Position numbers and translations under genes: made by a program
Assembly (NCBI GenBank): GCA_029261155.1
Contig: JAJDBW010000015.1
Coordinates: 1 to 32,381, forward strand
Direction of reading: 5' to 3'
Source: Nitrospirota bacterium
Lineage (GTDB): Bacteria > Nitrospirota > Nitrospiria > SBBL01 > JAADHI01
DNA: 32,381 nucleotides
Part shown: positions 185 to 31,100 of the stretch, one piece after another
How positions within the stretch are numbered: position 1 is the stretch's first letter
Layout of the letters: every line of letters starts with the position of its first letter
Notes under the pieces: generated by a model
What the model was told of the DNA's origin: nothing
Seen by the model: the letters and a program-made list of their open reading frames with translations, nothing else
The model's database searches: none

Positions 185-994
185 TTATGTTTTAGCTTTC
201 TTGCTTTTCCGGCCTCGTCCATAGCGATACCCAAACCGTTTCCACACCTTGGGATCGATCGGAAGACTCCCCATGGTTCGTGGCTCCAGATTGATGTAGG
301 CAACCGAATACTCCAAAAACCCGTAACGAAAGGCCTTCCAGAGCATCTCAGAGGCCTCCAGGGCCATAAATGCATTGATATAAAGATCCTGGTGTTGAAT
401 GGCCTCCGCTAAGGAACAAGAAGGCCCCTGATCGTCACCCGGCCGGTCTTTCGCCAATTCTGGATAGAGATCGAGCACCGTGGGCAAGCGATTAACGGTT
501 TTCTTTTGTTGCCCCTTGGGTTGTTTTACCTGACCGCATAAGCCAAAAACCACTTGACCGGATCGCTTCATATTGCCGCAATCGAGCCAATAAATATGTC
601 CATAGTTCTGCTTTAAGGCCTTGCCGATCTTGATTCTCGCCTTGGCGCTATCGACCGCGGTAATGACGATATCCGGTGTGCCCGCGCAAGGCGCTGGATA
701 TGACCTTGGGATACCCATCCAGCGAAAGTCCGTGCATTGGTTAATCCGAGTCACAAGGACCGTGACTTTCGGTAATCCGATGTCCTGGAAGTAGAATAGT
801 TGCCGGCCGACATTGGCCTCACTGACCAAATCAGGATCGTACATCGATACCTCGATACCGGGATGCCCTAAGGCCAATAAGGTCGTATTGAGTTGCACAA
901 GTCGGGTGGCCAAGTGGCTTCCCGTTCCCCCACATCCGACAAGATGAATTTTTATTGGGTGTTGAGAGCCTTGCAGATTAAAATAGTGTCTCAT
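185..994 (-). CDS. PRTRC system ThiF family protein (E1-like)
   Basis: This is an E1/ThiF-superfamily adenylating enzyme of 269 aa. Its Rossmann nucleotide-binding loop GCGGTGS is at residues 20-26. The acidic and Arg/Asn residues expected of the ATP site follow (D53-P-D55, N61, R64, Q65), and D115 and the DCGN at 138-141 complete the fold. C193 in GPSCSLAEA is the best candidate catalytic cysteine. E1-like enzymes adenylate the C-terminal glycine of a ubiquitin-like or sulfur-carrier protein; here the likely partner is PRTRC protein C. The ATG overlaps the stop of the protein A gene by 4 bases (ATGA), which implies translational coupling. It is the last gene of the cassette in transcription order. 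The family is recognised from the motifs and the gene order; the substrate is inferred. Confidence 0.9.
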   Translation of the reverse strand: MRHYFNLQGSQHPIKIHLVGCGGTGSHLATRLVQLNTTLLALGHPGIEVSMYDPDLVSEANVGRQLFYFQDIGLPKVTVLVTRINQCTDFRWMGIPRSYPAPCAGTPDIVITAVDSAKARIKIGKALKQNYGHIYWLDCGNMKRSGQVVFGLCGQVKQPKGQQKKTVNRLPTVLDLYPELAKDRPGDDQGPSCSLAEAIQHQDLYINAFMALEASEMLWKAFRYGFLEYSVAYINLEPRTMGSLPIDPKVWKRFGYRYGRGRKSKKAKT

Positions 995-1632
995 GGCTGA
1001 GCCTTCAACCGGCGCGTCCAGACTTTATTTAGATCGAGATCGAAGAAAAATCCTGAAAGACACAAGCGGATGACACTATTTACTTCAGAAAGGACACTCC
1101 CTATGTCACACAGCCCCAATACCAGGGAGAAATGCGCCAGGCCTTGATCCGATGTATTGTCCGTGCTGGAAAAGAAAGCCCGGCCGATACCGTGACTGTG
1201 CATGTCCAATACAAGATGTTGATCGACCGCAAGTTTTGGCCATGTAAATTCGACGGAACCCGGTGATTGTTCAGTCATGTTCAATTCGAGATAAGCCCAG
1301 CCCTTATTTTCGCTCCATAGGATCCAAGCGGCCGTCTCCAGTCCCTCTTTCGCCGCCTGATGCGCTTGTATTGCAAATTGCTCGACCAGGTTAAGCGGAA
1401 TGGTCCCACAGAAGAGCTCAATTTCTTCTTTTACCTGCCCGTAGGGCAAGGCGCGCGGACTCGCATAGAGGGGTTTCATAAACCGGCCCCAAGCGGTTTT
1501 CGATTCAATCCATAAGCCCTCAGCCGACATGAGAAAGCGCGAGGCGTTTTCCCTCAAGGCGCTCAAGGCCTCGAATTTCGGAACCATGAGGGTCGGCAGG
1601 TGTTGTTGCAACAAAAGATCATTTCCGTTCAT
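991..1632 (-). CDS. PRTRC system protein A, JAMM/JAB-type metallopeptidase
   Basis: This 213 aa protein has an intact JAMM zinc-peptidase signature: H145-S-H147, seven residues, then S155-x-x-D158. E99 in the preceding strand is the likely catalytic glutamate. JAMM enzymes cleave isopeptide or peptide bonds after the C-terminal glycine of ubiquitin-like proteins, or act in sulfur-carrier maturation. In this cassette the natural substrate would be protein C, which has residues beyond its Gly-Gly. The ATG follows GAGAGGCTAT and overlaps the end of protein B by 14 bases. The C-terminal 50 residues show no recognised motif. The family call is strong; the reaction in vivo is inferred. Confidence 0.88.
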   Translation of the reverse strand: MNGNDLLLQQHLPTLMVPKFEALSALRENASRFLMSAEGLWIESKTAWGRFMKPLYASPRALPYGQVKEEIELFCGTIPLNLVEQFAIQAHQAAKEGLETAAWILWSENKGWAYLELNMTEQSPGSVEFTWPKLAVDQHLVLDMHSHGIGRAFFSSTDNTSDQGLAHFSLVLGLCDIGSVLSEVNSVIRLCLSGFFFDLDLNKVWTRRLKAQP

Positions 1633-2338
1633 ATAGCCTCTCCTCCAATAAAAGCTGTTTTAAGGTCTTCTTGGCAGGCTTGAGCCATGAATAGGGGAAT
1701 CGTTTCCTTTTGCCCGAGAGCAAGTCCCCCCATAGTTTTTCCAATGTGCCCTGCAGTAAAAAATCTTCGTTATTGGCGTTGGGGTGCGTGAAGGCGCTTT
1801 TGTAAAAGGCCTCCGACCACGCATCGAGGGTTGATGGCGTGCATTTTGGAGGAATCTTGCTTTGACCAATACAAACTTTGTGGTTGTAATACACATTGTA
1901 AAAAGGGGCGCAATAAAGCGGCGTGCTTAATTCCGGTCTTTTATCCCCCCGAACGACATACACGGACAAATCTCTAGGACTGGCCACCATAACCAACGCG
2001 GGCCAAGGCGCCATGCCGCTTTTTAAGGGCGCGCCCCGGCCGAAGTAGATCGGTCTTCTCACGGAAGGACGAAAAAAGACCAAGGGGCCGCTCATTCCCG
2101 AACCGTAAGCAAGTAAGTCCTCGTCGATCCATCCCGTGTTGCTCACAAGCGAGGGGAGCACTGCTTTACAAAGGGCCTCTATACATTCTTGGGTCATCCC
2201 TCGCCCGGCCTCCAGATGTGGAACCCCGTTTTGATCTATACGGATGGGATGGACTTGCCAGTAGTGAGTAGTGCTACTTGGCTCCTCCCCCGTATATTGC
2301 AATAACGCCGTGTTTAAGCGAAGCGGGTGTATGGGCAT
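1619..2338 (-). CDS. PRTRC system protein B, E2-like
   Basis: This 239 aa protein matches PRTRC protein B by position and by its core, where an APFYNVY segment leads into V155-C156-I-G and then FTHPN at 183-187. As I recall, this family is assigned to the prokaryotic E2-like group (Prok-E2_D). The cysteine of the VCxG segment would then be the equivalent of the E2 thioester-forming residue, and C156 is present here. Its role would be to accept an activated ubiquitin-like protein from the ThiF protein. The start follows a very strong GAGGAGG site nine bases after the protein F stop. No membrane segment or signal peptide is seen. Confidence 0.85.
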   Translation of the reverse strand: MPIHPLRLNTALLQYTGEEPSSTTHYWQVHPIRIDQNGVPHLEAGRGMTQECIEALCKAVLPSLVSNTGWIDEDLLAYGSGMSGPLVFFRPSVRRPIYFGRGAPLKSGMAPWPALVMVASPRDLSVYVVRGDKRPELSTPLYCAPFYNVYYNHKVCIGQSKIPPKCTPSTLDAWSEAFYKSAFTHPNANNEDFLLQGTLEKLWGDLLSGKRKRFPYSWLKPAKKTLKQLLLEERLYERK

Positions 2339-2347
2339 GTATCCTCC

Positions 2348-3415
2348 TCAATTGGTGTCTTTATCCGATAACAAACTGGCTTCGATAAAAAGTTCGATCC
2401 ATTGTGAGAACCTTGAAATGGCGGTAAGGCTATTGGCTGTCTGCGTGGCGGTATCGATTGGAAAAGCCATCAGTCCTTCTTCGCCCGATTGCGCTTGTGA
2501 ATCGAGCAGCTCCCAAAAGAAGTCCATTAACCGCCCCGGTACATTCCAAAGAAAAGGGGTCAGATAGCCGTGATCGACCTGCTCCCTATAGGTCGAATCG
2601 TTATCCAAGAAATCGGGAATGGGCGCCTCCCACGAACCCGTAACCTCCGCCGTCTTTTTTGCCCAATGCCACCAGGCATTCAACCAAGCGTCTTCAGGCG
2701 GGCATTCTGGAAACGAGGGGAATTCAGGGCGTGTATCGTTTCTAAAAAGGGATCGATATTCGGGTGGAATTTCGTTTTTGGCTTCTTCTATATCTTGGAG
2801 GATTGCTTTCCGCTCAGCCTCGGAAAGATCGAGATCATCAAGTTGCTCTCCATGCCAGTCCTGAAACTCTTCGAAACAATCGTCAAAATTATAACCGTAT
2901 TTAAACCAATAGAGTGTCTTAAAGGCCGCCCGCACAACGGCCTCAAGACCGGCATTTTCTTCCGCCATCGCCGACAGGACATTGCAAGACAAGACATAGA
3001 CGGTTCTGGGAAAATAAAGGTAAAGGGCGGCTGCGGCACCGCCGTCGAAGTGGTCATTGGATTCAAGTTCGATCGAGAAATCATAGGCCTCCATTACACT
3101 CGAGCGCAGGGCTGCAAGCAGCGCTTCTATCCAAATGAGCAAATCGGCCTTGATTTGATTATTTTCGGTGACGCCCTCCCAAGGCCCCGGCTTGGCAATG
3201 TCCATCGGCTTCGATGCCTGAGCGATCCAGAGACCGATTCGAGACAGTTGATGACTTGAAATCCCAAATTCGGCAAAATCGAATGTCGAAGGCGCCGCGT
3301 TAATTCGGGGCAGCGGAATTAAGGCAGCAGGGAGAGGGGAAGGCTTCTCACGGTGTTGTTGGGGTCTATTGTTCCATGAAGTCTTAACAGATCGCTTAAG
3401 AGTTTGTGAGGACAT
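2348..3415 (-). CDS. PRTRC system protein F
   Basis: This 355 aa protein is assigned by its place between C and B and by the family-like opening FDFAEFG...LSRIGLW at about residues 45-65. It is Trp-, Asp- and Glu-rich (for example WLNAWWHWA near 240) and has no catalytic motif that I can recognise. The function is unknown; it is always found with the other PRTRC proteins and may be a scaffold or substrate adaptor. The start at 3415 is supported by AGGAG six bases before the ATG. That start lies inside the 3' part of the protein C frame, so the two genes overlap by 97 bases in different frames. The first 40 or so residues (Pro-, Arg- and Gln-rich) look poorly conserved. Confidence 0.8.
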   Translation of the reverse strand: MSSQTLKRSVKTSWNNRPQQHREKPSPLPAALIPLPRINAAPSTFDFAEFGISSHQLSRIGLWIAQASKPMDIAKPGPWEGVTENNQIKADLLIWIEALLAALRSSVMEAYDFSIELESNDHFDGGAAAALYLYFPRTVYVLSCNVLSAMAEENAGLEAVVRAAFKTLYWFKYGYNFDDCFEEFQDWHGEQLDDLDLSEAERKAILQDIEEAKNEIPPEYRSLFRNDTRPEFPSFPECPPEDAWLNAWWHWAKKTAEVTGSWEAPIPDFLDNDSTYREQVDHGYLTPFLWNVPGRLMDFFWELLDSQAQSGEEGLMAFPIDTATQTANSLTAISRFSQWIELFIEASLLSDKDTN

Positions 3416-3717
3416 GGCGCACTCCTGTCTTTATTCTCGGTGTCTTTGTCGGTGTCTTTGTCGGTGTCTTTTTGCAGAGCAAGGGTTTCGACTGTGACGG
3501 GGGGCGAAAGATCGCCCCCCTTGGTCCCGACAGCACGGTGAATTGCATAGATGAGGCTGTCTCCGCGTCTTTGCGGCTCGTCAATCACGGCCTGAGCCAA
3601 CTCCGGATAGACGTTTGCGTAAAAGACCTTCACCTCTTCTGGATGCATTGTTGGATCGGGATCATCGAGCACCATCCCGTTGTATTCGAACGATCGTGTG
3701 ACCTTTCGTACTTCCAT
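3319..3717 (-). CDS. PRTRC system protein C, ubiquitin-like, with C-terminal extension
   Basis: Residues 1-68 match PRTRC protein C: the opening TRSFEYNGMVLDDPDP, then HPEEVKVFYANVYPEL, ending in AVGTKGG at 62-68. Members usually stop close to this GTKG, at about 70 residues. As I recall, the family is assigned to the prokaryotic ubiquitin-like group (Prok_Ub). Here the frame continues for 64 more residues, including a KDTDKDTDKDTE repeat, and runs 97 bases into the protein F gene. The start follows CAGGAGGAG. The Gly67-Gly68 pair would be the conjugation end if the tail is removed, for example by the JAMM protein encoded in the same cassette. An alternative is that the tail is untranslated after a frameshift or is a recent stop-loss. 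Confidence 0.82.
   Translation of the reverse strand: MEVRKVTRSFEYNGMVLDDPDPTMHPEEVKVFYANVYPELAQAVIDEPQRRGDSLIYAIHRAVGTKGGDLSPPVTVETLALQKDTDKDTDKDTENKDRSAPCPHKLLSDLLRLHGTIDPNNTVRSLPLSLLP
3439..3474. repeat. Three tandem 12 bp units inside the protein C tail
   Basis: On the plus strand GGTGTCTTTGTC occurs twice in succession and is followed by a third, imperfect unit (GGTGTCTTTTTG). Read on the minus strand the array encodes Lys-Asp-Thr-Asp units. The unit length is a multiple of three, so changes in copy number would keep the frame. It lies just before the protein F start codon. Confidence 0.9.
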
Positions 3718-3756
3718 CGCTTACTCCTCCTGTTGGGTTTATCCAACTGTTAGGGT

Positions 3757-4176
3757 TTATCCAAAAAGCTGAAGATTTTTATCGCCGGCCGCAGAGGGCT
3801 CGGAGGCAGGGACTTTTTGTGTGGGCTTTGGCGTCTCTTTTTCACTTTCTTTCAGGTCTTTTCCTTCTTTCGTCTCGATGGCCTTTTGTATGGCCTCCTG
3901 CTTTTTATTAAAGGCGTGGTGGAGCCCCTCTTCTTCTGTCCGGGTATTTTTCATAATGTTCATGAAATCCGCATTCAATTCTTCAGGTGTCCCTTCCAGG
4001 ACCAAAGGCGTGCGGGCCTGTGTGTAGGCTTTTTCTTCTTTTCCTGTTAATCCATCTATCTTTGGGTAGATAGGCTGGACCAGAACGATCAATCGGCCGC
4101 TTCGGCCGGGCGTTACGCTAAAGTTAATACTTCCTTGCGGTGGAATCAGATCCTTGATCATCGCGAAATCAATCAT
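3757..4176 (-). CDS. PRTRC system protein E
   Basis: This 139 aa protein matches PRTRC protein E: the N-terminal half carries FSVTPGRSGRL, VQPIYPK and the TPLVLEGTPEELNADF segment, and it ends in QLFG. The second half (about 85-130) is Lys- and Glu-rich and probably disordered or helical. The function is unknown. The ATG follows GGGAG at a good spacing. It was probably cotranscribed with parB, about 40 bases upstream before the insertion sequence landed between them. The insertion lies 31 bases upstream of this ATG, so expression of E, C, F, B, A and ThiF may now depend on readthrough or on a promoter in the insertion sequence. Confidence 0.85.
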   Translation of the reverse strand: MIDFAMIKDLIPPQGSINFSVTPGRSGRLIVLVQPIYPKIDGLTGKEEKAYTQARTPLVLEGTPEELNADFMNIMKNTRTEEEGLHHAFNKKQEAIQKAIETKEGKDLKESEKETPKPTQKVPASEPSAAGDKNLQLFG

Positions 4177-4199
4177 TTTATTACTCCCTATTTAATATG

Positions 4200-4232
4200 G
4201 ATGTAACCATGCCTATCCGGTTGACGCAGGTT
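4200..4232. repeat. Left target duplication and left terminal repeat of the IS1595-type element
   Basis: The 8 bp target copy GATGTAAC (4200-4207) is followed by the left terminal repeat at 4208-4232, which begins CATGCCTATCCGGTT. It matches the reverse complement of the right end over 25 bases, with three mismatches. Confidence 0.9.
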
Positions 4233-5309
4233 GTCCCTCTGGGGCACTATTCTCTGCATGTCAGGCTTCCCCGAGAGTCTGCTGGAATTCCAGCAGCTTT
4301 TCCCTGATGAGACGGCCTGCAACCGCCACCTGGAGCAGACTCGGTGGCCGGGAGGTTTCGAATGCCCGTCATGTGGTCGCGTTGCTGAGCCGTGGCGACT
4401 TCAGTCCCGCCCACGCGTGCTCGAATGCCGGCACTGCGGTCACCAAGTCAGTCTCACAGCAGGCACCGTCATGCACCGCACGCGACAACCCCTCCCGGTC
4501 TGGTTCTGGGCGGCTTACCTCGTCACGACACAGACTCCAGGCATGAGCGCCTTGCAATTCCAACGGCAGCTCGGTATCAGACGTTACGAGACGGCGTTCC
4601 AGATGCTCCACAAGCTGCGTGCCGCGATGGTCCGGCCGGGCCGAGACCGGGTCGGCACCGAGTGGCCGGTCGAAGTAGACGAAACATACGTCGGCGGCGC
4701 GACGCAGGGAGAAGGGCGCGGGCGGCACCACAAGACGCTTGTTATCGGTATTGTCGAGGTGCGACCACGGAGGAAGTCTCCCGGTTCCGACCCAAATCTA
4801 TCCTCCGGCCAGCGTCCGCAACACCGCGGGGGTCACGGGCGCGGCTTCATCGCAGGCAGGTTGCGTCTCCGGGTCATCCCGAACCGTAAGCAGGAAACAC
4901 TGGAGCCGGTCATCCTCTCCAACGTGCAGCCGGGAACGGAAGTGAGCACGGACGGGTGGACTGGCTACGACAACTTGGATAAGCTGGGCTATCGGCACAA
5001 TGCCGTGTCGGTCCGGGGTGACCATGTCAAGACGGACCGGCACCTCCCCATGATTCACATCGTCTTCGGGAACCTTGATACGTGGCTTCTGGGAACGCAC
5101 CACGGGGTCAGCCCGAAACACTTGCAGGGCTATCTCAACGAGTTCGTGTTCCGATTCAACCGCCGGTTCTGGCCGATGGTTACTTTCGACAGCGTGCTGA
5201 AGATCGCCACCCGGGTGAAGGCGGCGACCTACAGGGAATTGTACGAAAGCGCACGGACACATCCGAATCCGGCGAGACTCATATGACCTGTGTTAACCGG
5301 ATAGGCATG
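4208..5309 (+). mobile_element. IS1595-family insertion sequence, 1102 bp, complete
   Basis: The element is bounded by 25 bp imperfect terminal inverted repeats and flanked by an identical 8 bp direct repeat, GATGTAAC. An 8 bp duplication is the size expected for IS1595. It carries one complete transposase gene reading opposite to every other gene in the window. It is visibly richer in G+C than its surroundings, which suggests recent arrival from a different genome. The intact duplication and open reading frame indicate that little decay has happened since insertion. It separates parB from the rest of the PRTRC cassette. Confidence 0.92.
4258..5286 (+). CDS. IS1595-family transposase (ISXO2-like DDE domain)
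   Basis: This 342 aa protein is read from ATG 4258; an earlier TTG at 4231 is in frame but has no convincing ribosome site. An N-terminal zinc ribbon (C36-x2-C39 and C57-x2-C60) is typical of IS1595 transposases and precedes a DNA-binding helical region. The RNase H-like catalytic core has D141 in VEVDETYVGG, D232 in STDGWTGYDN and a late acidic residue, probably E295 in YLNEFVFRFNRR. A basic Arg/Gly-rich stretch at 168-205 sits between the first and second core strands. It appears intact. It is the only plus-strand gene and its codon use is GC-rich compared with its neighbours. Confidence 0.93.
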   Translation: MSGFPESLLEFQQLFPDETACNRHLEQTRWPGGFECPSCGRVAEPWRLQSRPRVLECRHCGHQVSLTAGTVMHRTRQPLPVWFWAAYLVTTQTPGMSALQFQRQLGIRRYETAFQMLHKLRAAMVRPGRDRVGTEWPVEVDETYVGGATQGEGRGRHHKTLVIGIVEVRPRRKSPGSDPNLSSGQRPQHRGGHGRGFIAGRLRLRVIPNRKQETLEPVILSNVQPGTEVSTDGWTGYDNLDKLGYRHNAVSVRGDHVKTDRHLPMIHIVFGNLDTWLLGTHHGVSPKHLQGYLNEFVFRFNRRFWPMVTFDSVLKIATRVKAATYRELYESARTHPNPARLI

Positions 5310-5317
5310 GATGTAAC
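5285..5317. repeat. Right terminal repeat and right target duplication of the IS1595-type element
   Basis: The right terminal repeat occupies 5285-5309 and ends CCGGATAGGCATG. It is followed by the second copy of the 8 bp target GATGTAAC at 5310-5317. Removing the element and one target copy restores a 40 base gap between the parB stop and the protein E start. Confidence 0.9.
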
Positions 5318-5326
5318 GAGCTGGAC

Positions 5327-7033
5327 TTATCCCTGCAGTGTTTCCGGCTTGAGCCATTTGGGCAGGACCGGGAAGGTAAATCCGGAATTTAAAATCCCTT
5401 CGATGAAACTTGCTTTCGGTTTGTTGGCTAGTTTTTTGAGCGATCTTCCCTTGGCATCGAGGTAGCCGGCAAGACCGATCTCGTCAATCGTGGCTTCGAT
5501 CTCGACTTTTGTCAGAAGCGAGAGATAGTCTTTTTCAACGGAAAAGAGGGCCTCAGAATTATGCTTCAAATCGATAAAGATCATCTGTTCGACGGTTTCA
5601 ATGGGCAACTTTTCGATCACATGAGCTGCAAGTCGCCCTAAACCCTGCATCAGCGCGTTTATCTCCAAGCCCCGTGTTAATTCCAAGGTTTTAAGGGAAA
5701 AGGGCTCTCCGTCCGATTGCCCTGAGAGTTCTTTTAGAATCGCCCGGGCCGGTTGATATGAGGACCATGTGGAGTCGCTCATCGCTATAAACGCAAGCCG
5801 TAGGATATTCTCATCGCTTTCCTTTACAAAACGATCTTTGAGGAAGGCATCATAGCGTTTCCGCTTAAATTCCTTGACCCGTGAGGGCGCATGCTTGGCC
5901 GTCATCTTTAGCGCTGTGGGTGTCCCTTTTTCCTGAGCCGGAGGGGTCTTCTTTTTGCTCTTTCCATGCTGGGTTTTTGTTCTCTTTTGTTCCCGGTTGT
6001 CTTTTCGAAAGGCCTGTGAGCGTTCCTGGTAACACGTTTTCTGCGTACAGATGTTCTGCTGAAGCAAGTGCCCCCTTGCGGAGACAAAAACCACCAGGAA
6101 TTGGCAGCTTTGACAATCGGCTAAATTGGACTCTCCTAGCTCCGCGCCGTTGTGCATCAAAGACTGGGTGGCGTCCACATCGGGAGGTAGATCGGCGATG
6201 CCAACGGCCTGTTTTTCGGTCAGAACCGCGCGAGGCCCCATCGCCTCGATTTGCTTAATGAGCTCGTCGCCCTTTGTCCTTTCTTTAATCCGCCAGCAAT
6301 CCGCATTCAGGCAATGGCCAAGGCCTGTGACCTCCGGGGCAAATAAATCGGCTTGTCCCGCGCTATTGTGTATGCAGCTCAGGCATTCCTCTGTGTCGAA
6401 GGTCGCCATTTTGAGTTCCCGGCTTTTTTGCTGCATCAAGAGATTCGAGAGCTGGACCGCGTTGAGTTTCTGGTCTTCAACAAGGGATAAAATGTCTCCT
6501 TGCTTCTCGGCCGGCAGGCAGGCCAGTTGTTCCGCAACGGCAAGGGGGATTTCCTTCTTCCTAAGCTTCTTGCGAACGGCATCGCTTAATTGCCTCAACT
6601 TTAATCGGCGTTGAACATAGGATTGCTCCCGGTTGATAAAGGCCAGCAATTCGGCCATGGGCTGCGTTTCGAGAAATCTCGCAAAGGTGTCCGCTTCATC
6701 GAGCGGCGGGAGGTCTTCTCGATGAAGATTCTCGGCGAGGAGAATGGCTTGAATCTCAGACTCAGAGAGCCCTTCGCGCAGGTTTGCGGCAATGGTTTGA
6801 TAACCAAGATCTTCGCAGGCCAACTGCCGGCGCTGCCCCGCAAGGCGGTAGTAGCCCCCTTCGGGCCTGAGGGTTACTGTAATCGGATTGATCAGGCCGT
6901 TCGCCTTGATATTTTCCCTAAAATTCTCCATCGGGCCGAGATCGATAGACGAGCGCGGCTCTAAAGGGTGCGCATGAATCTCCTCAAGGGGGATTTGCAC
7001 AATATTCATCTTCTCTTCTACATTAATGTCCAT
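5327..7033 (-). CDS. PRTRC system ParB family protein
   Basis: This is a ParB-like protein of 568 aa from ATG 7033, chosen because ATAAGGA lies just upstream; the longer reading from 7117 has an unlikely opening. The ParB/Srx N-terminal domain has the segment IVQIPLEEIHAHPLEPR near 11-27, AGQRRQ at 65-70 in place of the usual GERR, and ENLHRED at 101-107. A helix-turn-helix region follows (about 115-220). The middle carries paired cysteines (CLSC, GHCLNADC, CQSC, CTQKTC) suggesting zinc binding, typical of the long PRTRC form. A Lys-rich linker and a C-terminal helical domain complete it. It may bind a centromere-like site or use the CTPase-like fold in the cassette. No ParA gene lies nearby in this window. 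Confidence 0.88.
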   Translation of the reverse strand: MDINVEEKMNIVQIPLEEIHAHPLEPRSSIDLGPMENFRENIKANGLINPITVTLRPEGGYYRLAGQRRQLACEDLGYQTIAANLREGLSESEIQAILLAENLHREDLPPLDEADTFARFLETQPMAELLAFINREQSYVQRRLKLRQLSDAVRKKLRKKEIPLAVAEQLACLPAEKQGDILSLVEDQKLNAVQLSNLLMQQKSRELKMATFDTEECLSCIHNSAGQADLFAPEVTGLGHCLNADCWRIKERTKGDELIKQIEAMGPRAVLTEKQAVGIADLPPDVDATQSLMHNGAELGESNLADCQSCQFLVVFVSARGHLLQQNICTQKTCYQERSQAFRKDNREQKRTKTQHGKSKKKTPPAQEKGTPTALKMTAKHAPSRVKEFKRKRYDAFLKDRFVKESDENILRLAFIAMSDSTWSSYQPARAILKELSGQSDGEPFSLKTLELTRGLEINALMQGLGRLAAHVIEKLPIETVEQMIFIDLKHNSEALFSVEKDYLSLLTKVEIEATIDEIGLAGYLDAKGRSLKKLANKPKASFIEGILNSGFTFPVLPKWLKPETLQG

Positions 7034-7123
7034 ATTTTCCTTATGTCTACAGGATTTCAAACTCAAGGGGTCGAGGGAATGAGCGCCAACCGACTCGTCA
7101 TCCCCCCGTCCCCTCATTCCGGC

Positions 7124-24877: not shown

Positions 24878-25285
24878 CTATAAACGTTTGGAAAATTCAG
24901 CGGGTGTGACGATTGGATATCGATCAGATAGGCTTAACAAATCCTTATCCCCAGTCACCAAAACCTCTGCGTTCGATTCGATCAATGCAGCGAGGATAGG
25001 GACATCGTCTTGATCTCGTAATTCCTCGAATTCCTGCATGGACGGATCGACGATGAGGCCCTTGAACTTCAGGAGCAGGATAAAGCGATCTATTCTATTT
25101 TCCGACCACTTCAATCTTTTCAAAATTTTCGGATACATCAAGGTACGCCTGATTTCTTCGAGTATCGCATCCGATATAACGATATCGAACCGAGCTTCGC
25201 GCCAGGCTTGTACGATCCGGCCGGGAACACTTTTTGGCAGGATGAGGCCCGACAGGATGACGTTGGAATCCAGGACGGCCTTCAC
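24878..25285 (-). CDS. PIN-domain toxin (VapC-like, PIN_3 type)
   Basis: This 135 aa toxin has the PIN nuclease acidic residues: D6 in AVLDSNVI, E43/E44 in ILEEIRR, D94 in QDDVPILAA and D113 in VTGDKDLL. PIN domains of this group usually cleave RNA. The GTG start overlaps the antitoxin stop by four bases (GTGA), so expression is translationally coupled. It lies immediately downstream of the antitoxin gene, forming a two-gene operon with a mapped promoter. It is intact and likely functions in plasmid maintenance. Confidence 0.88.
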   Translation of the reverse strand: MKAVLDSNVILSGLILPKSVPGRIVQAWREARFDIVISDAILEEIRRTLMYPKILKRLKWSENRIDRFILLLKFKGLIVDPSMQEFEELRDQDDVPILAALIESNAEVLVTGDKDLLSLSDRYPIVTPAEFSKRL

Positions 25286-25560
25286 TTTCTACGGTGCTTC
25301 GTTGCGGCGCGCTTGGCTTGTTTCAATAGACCGTCCACCGCTTCGATGGATTCCCCTTTAAAGGCGGCCTGAAGATCGGCAACGGCATTCTCGAACTCGG
25401 TCTCGAATAAACGGATTTTATTAAAAAGCGCCATGTCGACGATCGCGGCAACGGGTTTCCCTGAGCGCGTCACCACAACGCTGTCATGACGCAGCTGAAC
25501 TTCGTTAATCAATTCTCCAAAATTCTGCCGTACTTTCATAGCCGAAGCTTCTTTAATCAT
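25282..25560 (-). CDS. Phd/YefM-type antitoxin
   Basis: This 92 aa protein is read from ATG 25560 with GGAGG at good spacing. The N-terminal 55 residues match the Phd/YefM DNA-binding fold: KVRQNFGELINEVQ, then VVVTRSGKPVAAIVDM. The C-terminal part is helical and Lys-rich, the usual toxin-neutralising segment. It would bind the PIN toxin and repress its own promoter through the adjoining palindrome. Confidence 0.88.
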   Translation of the reverse strand: MIKEASAMKVRQNFGELINEVQLRHDSVVVTRSGKPVAAIVDMALFNKIRLFETEFENAVADLQAAFKGESIEAVDGLLKQAKRAATKHRRK

Positions 25561-25571
25561 ATCAACCTCCA

Positions 25572-25595
25572 TGATTCATATAATTGATATAATCA
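25572..25595. promoter_or_regulatory. Palindromic operator of the PIN toxin-antitoxin operon
   Basis: A 24 bp imperfect palindrome has outer arms TGATT/ATCA and inner arms ATAT/ATAT around AATTG. It sits between the -10 box and the antitoxin start, the usual place for autorepression by Phd-type antitoxins. Confidence 0.7.
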
Positions 25596-25623
25596 TAATA
25601 TCATGAGTTGGGAAAGGGGTCAA
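25595..25623 (-). promoter_or_regulatory. Promoter of the PIN toxin-antitoxin operon
   Basis: On the minus strand -35 TTGACC (25618-25623) and -10 TATTAT (25595-25600) are separated by exactly 17 bases, a near-consensus sigma-70 promoter. The -10 abuts the palindromic operator. Confidence 0.75.
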
Positions 25624-25637
25624 TGGGATATTGTGCT

Positions 25638-25859
25638 TTACCGATTTCTGCAGACGCGGCATATCTTTTTCCTCAATGATTGAATCTTTCCTTTCACCCG
25701 GTCCAGATATTTCGGGGAAACGCCTTTTAAGTCCTTTTGGAATTCTTTATTTAGGATGGCCTCAAGTACCAGACGATCTTCGACGCTTAACGAGGCGGCG
25801 GCCACTTCTGTAGGAAGCGCCGGGATACCTTTTGGTTGTCTTACATGTTTATTATCCAT
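25638..25859 (-). CDS. Small hypothetical protein
   Basis: This 73 aa basic protein has an ordered middle region SVEDRLVLEAILNKEF and a Lys/Arg-rich helical C-terminus ending CRVCRNR. The ribosome site is a moderate AGGATAGAG before the ATG. No family is recognised. It lies between the zinc-ribbon gene and the toxin-antitoxin promoter. Confidence 0.55.
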   Translation of the reverse strand: MDNKHVRQPKGIPALPTEVAAASLSVEDRLVLEAILNKEFQKDLKGVSPKYLDRVKGKIQSLRKKICRVCRNR

Positions 25860-25898
25860 CTCTATCCTTATGTTTGACGATGAGGTTTTACCCTGTGC

Positions 25899-26081
25899 TC
25901 AGGGTTTCGATATTTTTTCTTCGTCGACTGGCGGAAAGAGCACCGTGGCGCAATGGTGGCATTTGCGGGCGATGACTTCCCATTCTTCCGTCGAAAGCAG
26001 GTCTAGCATTCTTTCTTCATGCATAAGCCCACCGCATTTCGGGCAGTCAAAGATCAGGGTGGTTTCCGCGATTGGGTACAC
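25899..26081 (-). CDS. Small zinc-ribbon protein
   Basis: This 60 aa protein is read from GTG 26081, which has GAGG five bases upstream. Two CxxC pairs (CPKC at 13-16 and CHHC at 41-44) and the sequence between them make a zinc ribbon. It is located directly after the ribonucleotide reductase gene on the same strand, beyond a long hairpin. It may be a nucleic-acid or protein-binding adaptor. Confidence 0.65.
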   Translation of the reverse strand: MYPIAETTLIFDCPKCGGLMHEERMLDLLSTEEWEVIARKCHHCATVLFPPVDEEKISKP

Positions 26082-26093
26082 GATGACCTCTAA

Positions 26094-26122
26094 AGAGAGA
26101 GGCGGCGAGGCCGCCTCTCTCT
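26094..26122 (-). terminator. Perfect 13 bp hairpin between ribonucleotide reductase and zinc-ribbon genes
   Basis: A perfect inverted repeat has AGAGAGAGGCGGC paired with its complement around a 3-base loop. It follows the reductase stop codon by 11 bases. The downstream U-tract is short (TTTA), so it could be a weak terminator or an RNA-stabilising 3' structure rather than a strong terminator. Confidence 0.6.
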
Positions 26123-26133
26123 AAGGTTTTAAA

Positions 26134-28353
26134 TTAACACCGGCTCCAAGAACAACGCGTGCAGCTAAGACAACCCTCTTGCATCCGCACCGGGGAGAAG
26201 CTGCACTCAGGACAGGGTAGATCCATTGCCGTATTGCCTTTGAGGAGGGACATGACGGCAGCCAAACTTTTAATCAGTGCGTACACATCCGTGCTCATGT
26301 CGCCGAATTGGGCATTGGACTTGAGCATCTGCTCCATGTTCTTTTCGATCGGTTTTCCGTCTACGAGGGAATCGCTGACCAGCCGGCAGATTAAATCCAG
26401 GCTTTCCCTGTTTTTAATGTGCGGCGAAGGAGACAAAAACAATTGGTGGAATCGGCCTTCCCGTTTCAATATTTCTAAAAACTGGGACATGCCCGTCTCC
26501 CCCATCTGGAAGGCGACATGGACATAGGAGCTGCCTTGGCGCGTTTTGACCTTCACCCGGAGTTCAGGGGTCAATTCCAAGGACGTATTCGGGCCGGAAC
26601 CATTTTGCTTATGATCTTCAGTGCCCACATTTAAGACCTGATGGTCTCTGGACCCGTCCCGGTAGACCGTAATCCCTTTGCATTCCAGGGTGTAGGCCAT
26701 GAGGTAGGCGCTTCTAATGTCCTCCACGGTTGACGAGGGGGGAAGGTTGATGGTTTTGGAAACGGCGGAATCGGAGTATTCCTGAAAGGCCGCCTGCATG
26801 ATCACATGCCATTCCGCTTGAATGTCGTGAGAAGTGACAAAGACCTTCTGCCAGCGTTCCGGGACCTGTTCGAGACCTTCTACGGATCCCTTGTTCTCAA
26901 TCACGCGATCCAGCAGATCTTCAGTGTAGAAACCCTCCCGCTTTGCGATCTCGATAAAATGGTCGAGCACATAAGGCAGGTGTTCGCCATCCATCACATT
27001 TTTGTACCAGACGAGGGAGAATTCGGGCTCGCATCCTCCGGAGGTGTCCGCAATCATAGAGATTGTCCCCGTGGGTGCGATGGTGGTCACATATGAGTTT
27101 CGAAGCCTTTGATTCCGAGCCTCGTGCAAAGACCCGGGCCAGTTGGGATAAACGCCTCTTTCCTCCGCAAGACGGGCGGATGCCTCATCCCCTATCCGTT
27201 TAATAAAGGCCATGACTTCCTTGGCCGTCTTGACCCCTTCATCGGAATTGTAAGGAACCTCCAACTTGAAGAGCATTCGGGCAAATCCCATCACCCCAAG
27301 CCCTATTTTGCGGTTGGCCTTTGTGATTTTCTCTATCTCGGCAATCGGATAGCGGTTCATGTCGATGACGTTATCGAGAAAGCACACAGCGGTACGCACG
27401 GTGTCTTCGAGCAGGGCCCAGTCGATTTGGTATTTTCCGCCCTCTTTTTTAAGATGGCGGTCCAAAACGATGCTCCCAAGGTTACAGCTTTCGTAGGGAA
27501 GCAGGGGCTGCTCTCCGCAGGGATTGGTTGCTTCGATCCCTGCCACATGCGGAGTCGGATTCGTCCGGTTGGCCGCGTCGATAAAGAAGAGCCCCGGTTC
27601 GCCGGTGCGCCAAGCCTGCTCCGCGATTTGATCCATGACTTCCTTCGCTGGCAGACGACGGACCACCTCTCCGGTCCGGGGAGAGATCAAGTCGTAGTCC
27701 GCTCCGTGATGATAGGCCTCCATAAAGGCGTCGGTGATGGCCACGGAGATATTGAAGTTGGTGATTTCATTTGTATCGGACTTACACGAAATAAAGTCGA
27801 GAATATCGGGATGATCCACGCGCAGAATTCCCATATTGGCGCCCCGGCGTGTTCCCCCCTGTTTGACGGCTTCGGTCGCATGGTTAAAGACCTTCATAAA
27901 AGAGATCGGGCCCGAGGCCACGCCTCCTGTGGTCTTCACCCGGTCGTCCTTCGGTCGAATCTGGGAGAAGGAAAATCCGGTCCCGCCCCCCGTTTTGTGA
28001 ATAACGGCTGCTTGTTTAAGGGTTTCGAAAATGCCCTCCATGGAATCGGGCACAGGTAGGACAAAACAGGCCGAGAGTTGTTGAAGGTCACGGCCGGCGT
28101 TCATCAAGGTGGGTGAATTGGGTAAAAAGCGGAGCGAGGTCATCAGCCGATAAAAGCGGTCTTCGACTTTGGCGACGTCCACCTGGGAGTCGTATAACAC
28201 TTCGGCCTGCGCGATATTTTTCGCAACCCGGCGAAAGAGGTCCTCCGGGACTTCAAGCACGTCGCCTTGATCGTCTTTGACCAGGTAGCGTTTCTCCAAG
28301 ACCTTAAGGGCGTTATCCGTAAGTTTTAAAATTGGTTTTTTTGTTTTATTCAA
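26134..28353 (-). CDS. nrdJ: Adenosylcobalamin-dependent (class II) ribonucleoside-diphosphate reductase
   Basis: This 739 aa enzyme converts ribonucleotides to deoxyribonucleotides using coenzyme B12. The active-site residues are present: C96 (SACFVLPV) and C290 would form the redox pair, and N277, C279 and E281 lie in NPCGEQPLLPYESCNLGS, with C279 as the thiyl-radical residue. The C-terminus has a cysteine cluster (CPEC, then CLSCTRCSWSRC) that transfers reducing equivalents. It has the single-subunit architecture of class II enzymes and needs no oxygen. The start is TTG, nine bases after AGGAG. No cobalamin riboswitch is visible in the upstream region. It would supply dNTPs to the element or host. 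Confidence 0.93.
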   Translation of the reverse strand: MNKTKKPILKLTDNALKVLEKRYLVKDDQGDVLEVPEDLFRRVAKNIAQAEVLYDSQVDVAKVEDRFYRLMTSLRFLPNSPTLMNAGRDLQQLSACFVLPVPDSMEGIFETLKQAAVIHKTGGGTGFSFSQIRPKDDRVKTTGGVASGPISFMKVFNHATEAVKQGGTRRGANMGILRVDHPDILDFISCKSDTNEITNFNISVAITDAFMEAYHHGADYDLISPRTGEVVRRLPAKEVMDQIAEQAWRTGEPGLFFIDAANRTNPTPHVAGIEATNPCGEQPLLPYESCNLGSIVLDRHLKKEGGKYQIDWALLEDTVRTAVCFLDNVIDMNRYPIAEIEKITKANRKIGLGVMGFARMLFKLEVPYNSDEGVKTAKEVMAFIKRIGDEASARLAEERGVYPNWPGSLHEARNQRLRNSYVTTIAPTGTISMIADTSGGCEPEFSLVWYKNVMDGEHLPYVLDHFIEIAKREGFYTEDLLDRVIENKGSVEGLEQVPERWQKVFVTSHDIQAEWHVIMQAAFQEYSDSAVSKTINLPPSSTVEDIRSAYLMAYTLECKGITVYRDGSRDHQVLNVGTEDHKQNGSGPNTSLELTPELRVKVKTRQGSSYVHVAFQMGETGMSQFLEILKREGRFHQLFLSPSPHIKNRESLDLICRLVSDSLVDGKPIEKNMEQMLKSNAQFGDMSTDVYALIKSLAAVMSLLKGNTAMDLPCPECSFSPVRMQEGCLSCTRCSWSRC

Positions 28354-28782
28354 TGAATTTTTCTCCTAACAAAATAAACGTTGAAGATCTGTTTTCTTGT
28401 TTCTTCAATGGAAGATGGAATATCTCTTCAGCAAGCGCCATGCCGCTGAGTAGGCCTTCTAAAAGCGGCGCTTTCAATCAAGCTGTAACAAATCCGAACA
28501 GGACTGATACAAAAGCGCACACATTAAAGCCTTGGGGCAAAAGAACAGGAAAAAGTCATCCTGACCTTTAACCCTATTGTTGTTTATTTTTTTGTGAATT
28601 TTGTAGTCTTGATGTAGACGCCTATCCGATGATTCAGGAAAGGGCAAAGGCGGGGGTCATATTCCTGTAGCAAGGATTTTTAATTAGGGTAATACCAAAA
28701 TTACAAAATGGGAATCGAAATTTTACATTGATACTAAGGCGTCACAAACGACCTCTATTTTTGGAATGGAAAATCAAATTTT
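28354..28782. other. Non-coding gap upstream of nrdJ
   Basis: This 429 base stretch separates nrdJ from the membrane-protein gene. I see no convincing gene, riboswitch consensus or tandem repeat. A 6 bp inverted repeat (GCCGCT at 28442-28447 with AGCGGC at 28464-28469) may form a hairpin in the nrdJ leader. A plus-strand open frame of 28 codons ending at about 28670 (tail DVDAYPMIQERAKAGVIFL) has a protein-like composition but no start codon. The region is AT-rich towards the membrane gene. The nrdJ promoter must lie here or in the last 100 bases. Confidence 0.5.
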
Positions 28783-29160
28783 CTATTCTATATTCCGTCT
28801 TAAGACAAAATAATCTCCAATAATATAAAATGTTAAGTAATAAATAATACTTATGACGAGTGCCCCTTTGTAGACAGTTAATGTCGGATTATATCCCTTG
28901 ATGAAATATGATAAGTAAGAATTTCCTATGAGTGTCGCGCTAAAGGGGATTATACCTATTCTAAAATAACGGCGCAGTCCTAAACGCAGGCTATTTAAGA
29001 TAGTCGCAATAACGGCTGCCATTAATATCCAACTCCTCGCAATCATTTCCGTGACCTTTGAATCAGTCAATAAAATTATGGCGTAAGTGATGATAAAAAA
29101 AACCCAACAATAGAAATAGAATCGAACAATTTGTTTACTTACCTCGGCACTATTATTCAT
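28783..29160 (-). CDS. Small integral membrane protein, AT-rich gene
   Basis: This 125 aa protein is read from ATG 29160, which has AGG six bases upstream; a longer frame to 29310 is less likely. Four hydrophobic segments are predicted at about 12-31, 41-57, 69-85 and 96-116, with basic loops (RLGLRRYFR). No family is recognised. It is clearly more AT-rich than its neighbours, suggesting separate acquisition. It follows the RES toxin gene with a 112 base gap. It may be a bacteriocin-immunity or transport-type protein, but nothing decides this. Confidence 0.65.
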   Translation of the reverse strand: MNNSAEVSKQIVRFYFYCWVFFIITYAIILLTDSKVTEMIARSWILMAAVIATILNSLRLGLRRYFRIGIIPFSATLIGNSYLSYFIKGYNPTLTVYKGALVISIIYYLTFYIIGDYFVLRRNIE

Positions 29161-29272
29161 AGGCAACCTATCCGATACATTTATTCTCCAACAAAAAGTT
29201 AACTGATGTCTAACTATTAAATACGCATTAGCACATTGGGATTGTCGAAATGCCCTAGAATATTCACAACGT

Positions 29273-29749
29273 TTAATTCTTTTTAGACGGCTTGTGAAGC
29301 CGCTCATCATATATGAAGTTTTCGACCTCGAGGATTCTGACCGACTTCATATCGGGGTGGCTTGGATTGATCAGGATATTAAACTCATGCATCACAACTG
29401 CAGAAGGAACGCGCAGGAGTAGGCTTTCCATGCTGGATACCCAGTTTGTGCCGATTTCTCCCAAAGAGAAGGGAGCAGGACTATGGCGCCAATCGCCCGG
29501 AAGCTTAGCCGAATCGATTTGTTTCGGAACAATCGATTTTGGAATTCCGATCGATGAGATTTTAATTTCCGGCGGGATGTTCGCTAGGGACACATGGACC
29601 AAGTATTCCATCGCCGCAAGCGACCTGCTCTCCGAGGTGTATATGACTGCCGTTTCCTTCGTGTTCCATCGCCCTCCTGTCAGCCTAGCCCCCCTACCGG
29701 ACAGATCGCGTGCATGTTTTGCCAGGGAGATCCGATAGACCTGCCTCAT
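29273..29749 (-). CDS. RES-domain toxin, NAD+-targeting family
   Basis: This 158 aa protein has the RES hallmark residues: RLTGGRWN at 22-29, IYTSESRSLAAMEYLVH at 36-52 and NILINPSHPD near 124-133. Toxins of this family break down cellular NAD+ by phosphorolysis or ADP-ribosylate targets. The ATG overlaps the antitoxin stop by four bases (ATGA). The partner upstream is a DUF2384 antitoxin, the usual pairing. The reading frame is complete. Confidence 0.9.
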   Translation of the reverse strand: MRQVYRISLAKHARDLSGRGARLTGGRWNTKETAVIYTSESRSLAAMEYLVHVSLANIPPEIKISSIGIPKSIVPKQIDSAKLPGDWRHSPAPFSLGEIGTNWVSSMESLLLRVPSAVVMHEFNILINPSHPDMKSVRILEVENFIYDERLHKPSKKN

Positions 29750-30192
29750 GCATAGACGCCGTATTCGATTCGGCCGAGCTCATCCATGACCATTTGGGTG
29801 CCGGTTTTAAGATTGACCAGATCGCAGGGCACCTCTCCTCCTAATGCCTTACTTGGCGTATTAAACCAGCTCATAAATTTCTCAAGTGAACCGAAAACCT
29901 CAATCCCTTTCCCCACTAAAAACACCAACTGAATGATATGTTCGGATATGCTCGGGCTGAACTTCTGGCGACTGGAGTATCGCTGAATCGTGCGCAGGGT
30001 AATCGGCAGCAGATCCGCGAATTGATCCGGCGAATAGTTTAAAAATCGGACAAATTTCATGAGCGAGGCTTTGGTGATGCCTTCCTTGCTCATTTCGATG
30101 ACATCCATATTGGATTTTAATTGCTTATGGAAGATCTTTGCGAAGATCTCATCCGTTTGGGTGTCGTGCTGTGATATTGTAAGGGTTGCCAT
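29746..30192 (-). CDS. DUF2384 / ParS-MbcA-type antitoxin
   Basis: This 148 aa protein is read from ATG 30192, which has GAGG five bases upstream. The N-terminal half is an Xre-like DNA-binding region (TKASLMKFVRFLNYSPDQFA, then LRTIQRYSSRQ) and the C-terminal half is the DUF2384 domain (GIEVFGSLEKFMSWFNTPSKAL, then LGRIEYGV). It neutralises the RES toxin and represses the operon through the palindrome upstream. The gene pair is preceded by a near-consensus promoter. Confidence 0.9.
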   Translation of the reverse strand: MATLTISQHDTQTDEIFAKIFHKQLKSNMDVIEMSKEGITKASLMKFVRFLNYSPDQFADLLPITLRTIQRYSSRQKFSPSISEHIIQLVFLVGKGIEVFGSLEKFMSWFNTPSKALGGEVPCDLVNLKTGTQMVMDELGRIEYGVYA

Positions 30193-30219
30193 GTTCACCT
30201 CTCTGTTCTATATGTGACC

Positions 30220-30235
30220 TACGACATATGTCGTA
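30220..30235. promoter_or_regulatory. Perfect 16 bp palindromic operator of the RES/DUF2384 operon
   Basis: TACGACATATGTCGTA is a perfect palindrome just downstream of the -10 box. Related half-sites (ATGTGAC, ATGTCAC and ATGTCAA) flank it in the next 45 bases, so several antitoxin dimers could bind side by side. Confidence 0.85.
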
Positions 30236-30264
30236 ATAATATCGAAATATGTCACTTATGTCAA
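30236..30264 (-). promoter_or_regulatory. Promoter of the RES/DUF2384 operon
   Basis: On the minus strand -35 TTGACA (30259-30264, consensus) and -10 TATTAT (30236-30241) are 17 bases apart. This is the strongest promoter match found in the window and abuts the palindromic operator. Confidence 0.85.
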
Positions 30265-30347
30265 GTTAGGGGCACTAGATCTGAAAACCCAAGGCGGGCG
30301 ATTAAAGGTCCTTCTAGCTGACGCGTCGTCCTCTTCGACACCGCGAA

Positions 30348-30686
30348 TTAGGCGGCAATGATCTTAATTTTTAGATCATGGTGTAGCTTTTCTGCATACC
30401 CTGCAAGCCGATCCAAAGTAAAATGCGTAATCTTACCGCGTAAAATATCGCTAACCCGTGATTCATCTACGCCAATCTGGATAGCGAGATCCTTTTGAAG
30501 CAGCTTATGCTCTCTGCGGTATTTGGCGATCAGCTGACAAAGTTGGTACTTGGCCCGATCGACTTCCGAGGCATCCGCTGGTAAAGCGATATTGCCGCCC
30601 GAGTAGTTTGGATCGGATAGCTTGTCGCGAACCCTTTTTAAGCTTTTGGCCTCAGGAAATTTTGCCTGAGATTGTCGTTTTTTCAT
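30348..30686 (-). CDS. HigA2-like XRE-family antitoxin
   Basis: This 112 aa protein has an Xre helix-turn-helix in its second half (LLQKDLAIQIGVDESRVSDI at about 74-93), typical of HigA-like antitoxins that follow the toxin. The basic N-terminal 35 residues are probably flexible. GGAGG lies close to the ATG and the toxin stop is only three bases upstream. It probably represses its own promoter and neutralises the protein encoded by 30690-30980. Confidence 0.82.
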   Translation of the reverse strand: MKKRQSQAKFPEAKSLKRVRDKLSDPNYSGGNIALPADASEVDRAKYQLCQLIAKYRREHKLLQKDLAIQIGVDESRVSDILRGKITHFTLDRLAGYAEKLHHDLKIKIIAA

Positions 30687-30689
30687 TAT

Positions 30690-30980
30690 TTACCTCCGAA
30701 AGCAATTAATGATTCCGATGAATAAGCACTGAGCTCGCATACACCAGACCAAGCGATACAGCTTTCCCTCATGTTCGAGCTGATCCAGCATGAAGTACTC
30801 CCAGTCACCCTCAGATTCTTCAGGTAAAAACTCTCTACCGTCCAAATATCCGACTAATTCCAAGATTAGGGCATAATCGATATCCGAATGTTTTTTCTCA
30901 AAGTGCGGGTCAATGACCACCTCATTAATGTCTCGACCATTTATATTGATGTTGACTGCGTAACTGCGGCGTTCGTTCAT
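30690..30980 (-). CDS. Putative HigB/RelE-like toxin
   Basis: This 96 aa protein is read from ATG 30980, which has GGAG six bases upstream. It has an alternating charged and hydrophobic pattern and ends in a strand-rich segment (LYRLVWCMRAQCLFIGIINCFRR), which fits a small ribonuclease-type toxin fold. Order (toxin first, Xre antitoxin second) and a palindromic operator fit HigBA-type modules. No catalytic residues can be assigned with confidence. Confidence 0.6.
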   Translation of the reverse strand: MNERRSYAVNININGRDINEVVIDPHFEKKHSDIDYALILELVGYLDGREFLPEESEGDWEYFMLDQLEHEGKLYRLVWCMRAQCLFIGIINCFRR

Positions 30981-30990
30981 CTTATCTCCT

Positions 30991-31020
30991 AGAATAGGTG
31001 ATCTTGCTATATTTAGCAAG
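30991..31020 (-). promoter_or_regulatory. Promoter and operator of the HigBA-like module
   Basis: CTTGCTATATTTAGCAAG at 31003-31020 is an 18 bp palindrome with 7 bp arms. On the minus strand a -35-like TTGCTA (31014-31019) is 17 bases from TATTCT (30991-30996), so the operator overlaps the -35 element. It suits autorepression. Confidence 0.65.
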
Positions 31021-31100
31021 TACATTCAGGTTTCGGCCGAAGGCAGAGAAGGAAGTCGTCTTGACCTTCCTCCCCTCTTTTGCCTCCGGTCCGATGAATC

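Follow-up and report, generated by a model that had tools for sequence, protein, structure and literature searches.

What does a gene cassette whose products resemble the parts of a ubiquitin pathway do on a plasmid-like contig, and which protein would it label? The window analysed here is that entire contig (32,381 nucleotides), part of a Nitrospirota draft genome of 3.56 Mb in 90 contigs; the named plasmids closest to it are those of Candidatus Manganitrophus. In the list of open reading frames (ORFs) of the window, the cassette genes are all on the minus strand and run ParB, E, C, 'F', B, A, ThiF (Table 1). It is a real, apparently intact example of an already known type of system, and probably represents a ubiquitin-like conjugation system carried by mobile elements, of the PRTRC or Iyer 6d type, that acts on DNA-maintenance proteins.

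Table 1. Features of the PRTRC cassette in the window
Feature	Position	Strand	Evidence
ThiF, PRTRC family, E1-like adenylating enzyme, 269 aa	185..994	-	TIGR03736 6.7e-75
Protein A, PRTRC family, DUF2016 + JAMM metalloprotease	991..1632	-	TIGR03735 5e-51, Prok-JAB 4e-12
Protein B, PRTRC family, E2-like	1619..2338	-	TIGR03737 9e-50, Prok-E2_D 1e-34
F-position protein, 355 aa	2348..3415	-	named by position
Protein C, PRTRC family, putative ubiquitin-like precursor	3319..3717	-	TIGR03738 5e-24, Prok_Ub 4e-23
Protein E, PRTRC family, 139 aa	3757..4176	-	TIGR03741 1.6e-10
IS1595-type insertion sequence	4208..5309	+	transposase ORF, TIRs, TSD
ParB family protein, cassette head gene	5327..7117 (start possibly 7033)	-	TIGR03734 2e-64, ParB_N, HTH_ParB

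Cassette genes and the insertion between ParB and E

ThiF, A, B and C are adjacent genes, each above its PRTRC profile cut-off, and E reached 40.9 bits against TIGR03741 (cut-off 37.95) and 24.9 bits against Pfam PRTRC_E (cut-off 26). The cassette described in an earlier note on this DNA, with ThiF, A, B, C, E and ParB, was thus borne out by matches of ThiF, A, B, C and E to PRTRC or Pfam families. ParB scored 218 bits against TIGR03734, below the curated cut-off of 278.6, with position and domains as expected for a PRTRC ParB. The ORF in the F position, which shares its first 97 nt with the end of C, had no significant hit in Pfam or NCBIfam, nor to PRTRC_F (TIGR03742), and is therefore called F by position alone; when its Nitrospirota relatives were compared with annotated F proteins, the hhalign profile E-value was 0.37. 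A pooled alignment gave 1e-5, so a distant relationship to annotated F may exist. The presence of ParB, E and F, also claimed earlier, accordingly stands for E by profile and for ParB by position and domains, but for F by position only. Across the cassettes compared, an F-position ORF is found in 39/40 with A and 50/51 without A, and E in 38/40 and 48/51. A search for PRTRC_D, run without a positive control, found none in the genome. We also noted two Cys-rich, metal-binding-looking clusters (CxxC...CxxxxC) in the window ParB and, at 24878-31025 of the same contig, a ribonucleotide reductase along with toxin-antitoxin-like pairs, among them PIN-domain and RES-domain ones.

ParB and E are separated by a complete IS1595-type element, which the earlier note does not mention; its transposase is at 4231-5286, and its terminal inverted repeats (TIRs) are 25 bp long. 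Both flanks carry the 8-bp target site duplication (TSD) GATGTAAC (4200-4207 and 5310-5317), and the draft genome holds no other copy of the element. A second PRTRC cassette of the same genome (L017, on contig C33) is uninterrupted, with no IS at the corresponding site; together with two upstream flanking genes, it is 61-89% identical to the window, protein by protein. Through the insertion, transcription of E-ThiF in the window copy may have become separated from that of ParB. It is also possible, though we regard it as unlikely, that the insertion has silenced the window copy, leaving a remnant that is unexpressed and decaying. This would fit the location of the element between ParB and E, and a scan of the IS region for a sigma-70 consensus promoter found none, which is weak evidence since consensus scans overlook promoters of other kinds. 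However, all seven cassette ORFs and their catalytic motifs are intact, and a ribosome-binding-like AGGGAG is preserved on the E side of the element. In another cassette, on the Pseudomonas aeruginosa plasmid pSE5369-NR (L031), IS21-type genes lie between B and ThiF, the usual place of A, and no A was found.

E1-like, E2-like and ubiquitin-like proteins

Family profiles, motifs and structural models support the assignment of the four central proteins as E1-like, E2-like, ubiquitin-like (UBL) and JAMM proteins. In ThiF, the GCGGTGS nucleotide loop on which the earlier E1-like reading was based was located, together with N61-V-G-R64-Q, and a PDB profile search returned UBA3 and UBA6 as the best chains, with UBA1 also matched. 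The candidate catalytic cysteine, C193 (codon 416-418), lies within P-S-C-S-L, and the S-C pair has near-identical surroundings in 107/108 thinned ThiF relatives. The motif resembles F-P-M-C-T-I of UBA3, as read from PDB chains, the Cys of which is the UBA3 catalytic cysteine. Protein A was likewise correctly described as having an intact JAMM motif (HxHx7SxxD; H145-S-H147...S155xxD158, at 1159-1200), and the motif is intact in 78/79 A proteins, the exception being that of a Shewanella cassette (L034) whose C is tail-less.

By family profile, motif and model, protein B is E2-like (Pfam Prok-E2_D). Its candidate catalytic cysteine C156 (codon 1871-1873), already singled out in the earlier note, has N148 eight residues upstream, so that N148-V-x5-V-C156 parallels the N-I-x5-I-C of E2 proteins and N148-x7-C156 reproduces the E2 spacing. 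Relatives of B mostly read N-V-x3-G-x-[VI]-C-x-G (107 with exact spacing), in agreement with N-I-x3-G-x-I-C in UbcH5. The His of the HPN motif is Phe in the window B, and among 105 relatives it is His in 9 and Phe or Tyr in most, an absence already noted for the E2-like proteins of operon 6d (Iyer 2006, PMC1779556).

The UBL part of C comprises residues 1-67 and is followed by a tail of 65 residues (68-132), likewise absent from the earlier note. An AF2 model of C had a pLDDT of about 96 for residues 11-60 and of 48-66 over most of the tail, which is predicted to be disordered; the pLDDT of the B model was 90. The earlier note had proposed to look for an E2 fold in B and a beta-grasp fold in C. 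Upon VIA re-ranking, E2 entries occupied all of the best 50 listed places for B, where the top Z was 5.1 and 128 residues superposed with an rmsd of 5.0. Ubiquitin or UBLs occupied the best 50 listed for C almost throughout; here the top Z was also 5.1, 55 residues superposed with an rmsd of 2.4, and residue 66 of C was aligned with ubiquitin residue 76. A VIA Z near 5 is by itself weak evidence of fold, and Foldseek alone gave no PDB match under E 0.001 for either model. PDB sequence-profile searches with B or C found no chain.

The conserved end of the UBL part is an invariant Lys-Gly, K66-G67 (G67 codon 3517-3519), which is internal here and lies before the tail. It aligns with the terminal Lys-Gly of short family members, which stop exactly there, and long C proteins continue after the Gly with G, A, C, N, T, Q, D or W. 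The description of C as ubiquitin-like with Gly-Gly thus stands in its first part (TIGR03738, Prok_Ub and the model), but the second Gly is variable.

Given a ThiF that is homologous to ThiF/MoeB and also matches ThiF profiles, and a single C-terminal Gly as in ThiS/MoaD, we considered whether C might be a sulfur carrier that ThiF activates as a G67 thiocarboxylate for biosynthesis, without conjugation. This reading appears highly doubtful, as an E2-like protein whose candidate Cys is conserved accompanies nearly all cassettes, P-S-C-S-L matches the catalytic-Cys motif of the E1 UBA3, and no sulfur or cofactor gene was seen among the identified recurrent neighbours. Conjugation by the window cassette is likely but unproven.

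The tail of protein C and protein A

The C proteins with tails have the pattern expected of a processed precursor, with a sharp drop in conservation after K66-G67 that suggests cleavage at this point. Among 25 thinned C proteins with tails of at least 30 residues, the K and the G have an entropy of 0, the position after them has 2.35 bits, and those further on have about 2.6-3.4. A KDTDKDTDKDTE repeat at residues about 84-93 of the window tail is missing from the sister copy, and this region appears from its sequence to be an indel-prone linker.

We scored 162 cassettes for both the tail, defined as more than two residues past the Gly, and protein A. C has a tail in 54/74 cassettes with A and in 0/88 without A; after removal of near-identical ThiF rows, the counts were 34/45 and 0/63. 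This distribution fits A as a tail-cutting protease, which is suggestive, not proven. On the ThiF tree, A was gained or lost only 3 times, and the A-less cassettes fall mostly into one Bacteroidota-rich clade, so that shared inheritance may be the source of the link. An independent-pairs test on this tree, with 2-3 independent contrasts, was not significant; so few changes of A make such a test incapable of significance. Since 20/74 A-bearing cassettes are tail-less, tail removal is not the sole job of A.

These tail-less cassettes would also fit an explanation to which we assign a rather low probability, namely that the tail is simply additional coding sequence or arose as a side effect of the F overlap, with A acting as a deconjugase only. 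In line with this, the tails of different lineages have no visible likeness, and from residue 101 on the window tail overlaps the start of F. In contrast, residues 68-100 lie outside the overlap, and a SPPxTVxxLA-like stretch there is kept in close Nitrospirota relatives; moreover, the K-G is invariant within long C proteins, and no tail was seen among A-less cassettes.

From the parts, motifs, predicted folds and tail/A association, which come from sequence or models, we infer the following catalytic steps, target and purpose. C would first be a precursor, from which the JAMM protein A would cleave the 65-residue tail after K66-G67. ThiF would adenylate G67 and then hold C as a thioester on C193, from which C could pass to C156 of B. 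C would then be joined to a target, with the F-position protein and E as possible helpers, and A may also be able to remove C from the target. The likeliest targets would be proteins responsible for retaining or replicating the DNA of the element itself, with ParB as the best candidate here and an element-encoded sliding clamp elsewhere.

Candidate targets, carriers and known systems

Judging from gene order, ParB is the best candidate target in the window cassette. The earlier suggestion that ParB might be the labelled partner can apply to a subset of cassettes only, as ParB is upstream in 20/40 A-bearing ones and in 1/51 of those lacking A. Another recurrent neighbour is dnaN, which encodes the sliding clamp and lies on the same strand in 22/87 cassettes with enough flank, with at least 13 changes on the tree. 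In 15 cassettes (L040, L142, L039, L138, L038, L045, L041, L050, L123, L130, L043, L057, L055, L037 and L059), no more than 33 bp separate the end of dnaN from the E reading frame, the gaps being approximate as frames were taken from the first start codon. In Azospira (L029), dnaN is directly upstream of E at 93 bp, and in L033 and L035 the order is dnaN-parB-E. An additional dnaN is found elsewhere in two of the host genomes (G396 and G397). With one query, dnaN was found in 422/72,556 plasmid records, indicating that it is rare on plasmids generally, in a count made without control for plasmid size. The dnaN product was rejected as a target in the window, which has no dnaN; the single copy of the genome is on another contig. 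DnaB, topoisomerase and helicases are further frequent neighbours.

Several hundred sequenced plasmids carry PRTRC operons, among them megaplasmids of Pseudomonas aeruginosa, and pMOL28 of Cupriavidus metallidurans is a cassette carrier from a cultured host; many text matches to 'PRTRC' were look-alike strings (pRtrCIAT899, PRtrc promoters) and were discarded. We also detected a cassette in an isolated tailed phage, Burkholderia phage BgVeeders33 (L115), in the order E-C-F-B-A-ThiF beside structural genes. The genes of this cassette are mostly annotated as hypothetical, and PHROGs gave nothing for its C, F, B or A at E 0.001. These observations suggest that PRTRC operons travel on plasmids and phages beside DNA partition or replication genes.

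The carriers also bear on whether the cassette serves anti-phage or anti-plasmid defence by labelling invader proteins, as Bil does. The part set equals that of Bil (E1, E2, UBL, JAMM; PMC11354881), and ThiF scores on PADLOC E1-E2 models. Yet the cassettes are carried by plasmids and an isolated phage, are linked to ParB and dnaN, and have A, B and C proteins that matched no PADLOC model, such that a defence role seems quite unlikely, although one mobile element may use the cassette to defend against another. We continue to favour action on DNA-maintenance proteins for the window cassette. As a rule for the whole family, in which PRTRC would be a DNA-maintenance modification of mobile elements, A would mature the UBL, A-less cassettes would encode a ready-made UBL and the targets would be ParB or the clamp, the combined proposal is a long shot. 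If true, A-less cassettes conjugate without that deconjugase, and modification of ParB or the clamp would be a bacterial counterpart of PCNA modification.

The E1/E2/UBL/JAMM reading of the window is not new, as operon 6d, with UBL, JAB, E1-like, E2-like and helical proteins, was described in 2006, when JAB cleavage was also proposed for other UBLs (Iyer, Burroughs and Aravind 2006, PMC1779556). Based on the matching parts, we equate the PRTRC cassette (NCBIfam TIGR03734-TIGR03742) with operon 6d. In a literature search of incomplete coverage, we found no report of tailed C precursors or their restriction to A-bearing cassettes, of dnaN-headed PRTRC operons or of a phage-borne cassette; no PRTRC function paper, family biochemistry or demonstrated conjugation was found either. 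The presence of a C tail past the glycine only where A is present, across 162 cassettes, is thus new as far as the literature was searched, and suggestive. Together with the ParB-or-clamp head gene, this tail/JAMM rule makes the target of the PRTRC label directly testable and, if the reading is true, ubiquitin-like regulation would extend to plasmid and phage replication or partition.

Like operon 6d, the window cassette has a UBL, a JAB protein with an extra N-terminal domain, an E1-like, an E2-like and one further protein, and it shares the order E-C-F-B-A-ThiF with annotated PRTRC plasmids. It differs from both in the 65-residue tail of C, an F without profile match and the IS1595-type element between ParB and E. 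With CBASS Cap2 and the eukaryotic E1, E2 and ubiquitin it has in common the adenylation domain, the catalytic-Cys motifs and the UBL fold; unlike in eukaryotic E2 proteins, the HPN His is absent from most B, and the PDB sequence searches with B or C were empty. Among bacterial systems, Bub operons were reportedly defined by Gong 2025 and Ye 2026. They are bacterial ubiquitination-like operons (PMC13373217). The PRTRC cassette also shares E1, E2, UBL and JAMM proteins with the anti-phage conjugation operons BilABCD, in which BilC trims BilA to expose a C-terminal Gly (reviewed in PMC11354881). Two UBL domains are present in BilA, and the E1 of Bil, BilD, is pseudodimeric and carries a Cys domain (PMC11354881), in contrast to the window, where C has a single UBL domain and the E1 is short; PRTRC cassettes also differ from Bil in adjoining ParB or dnaN.
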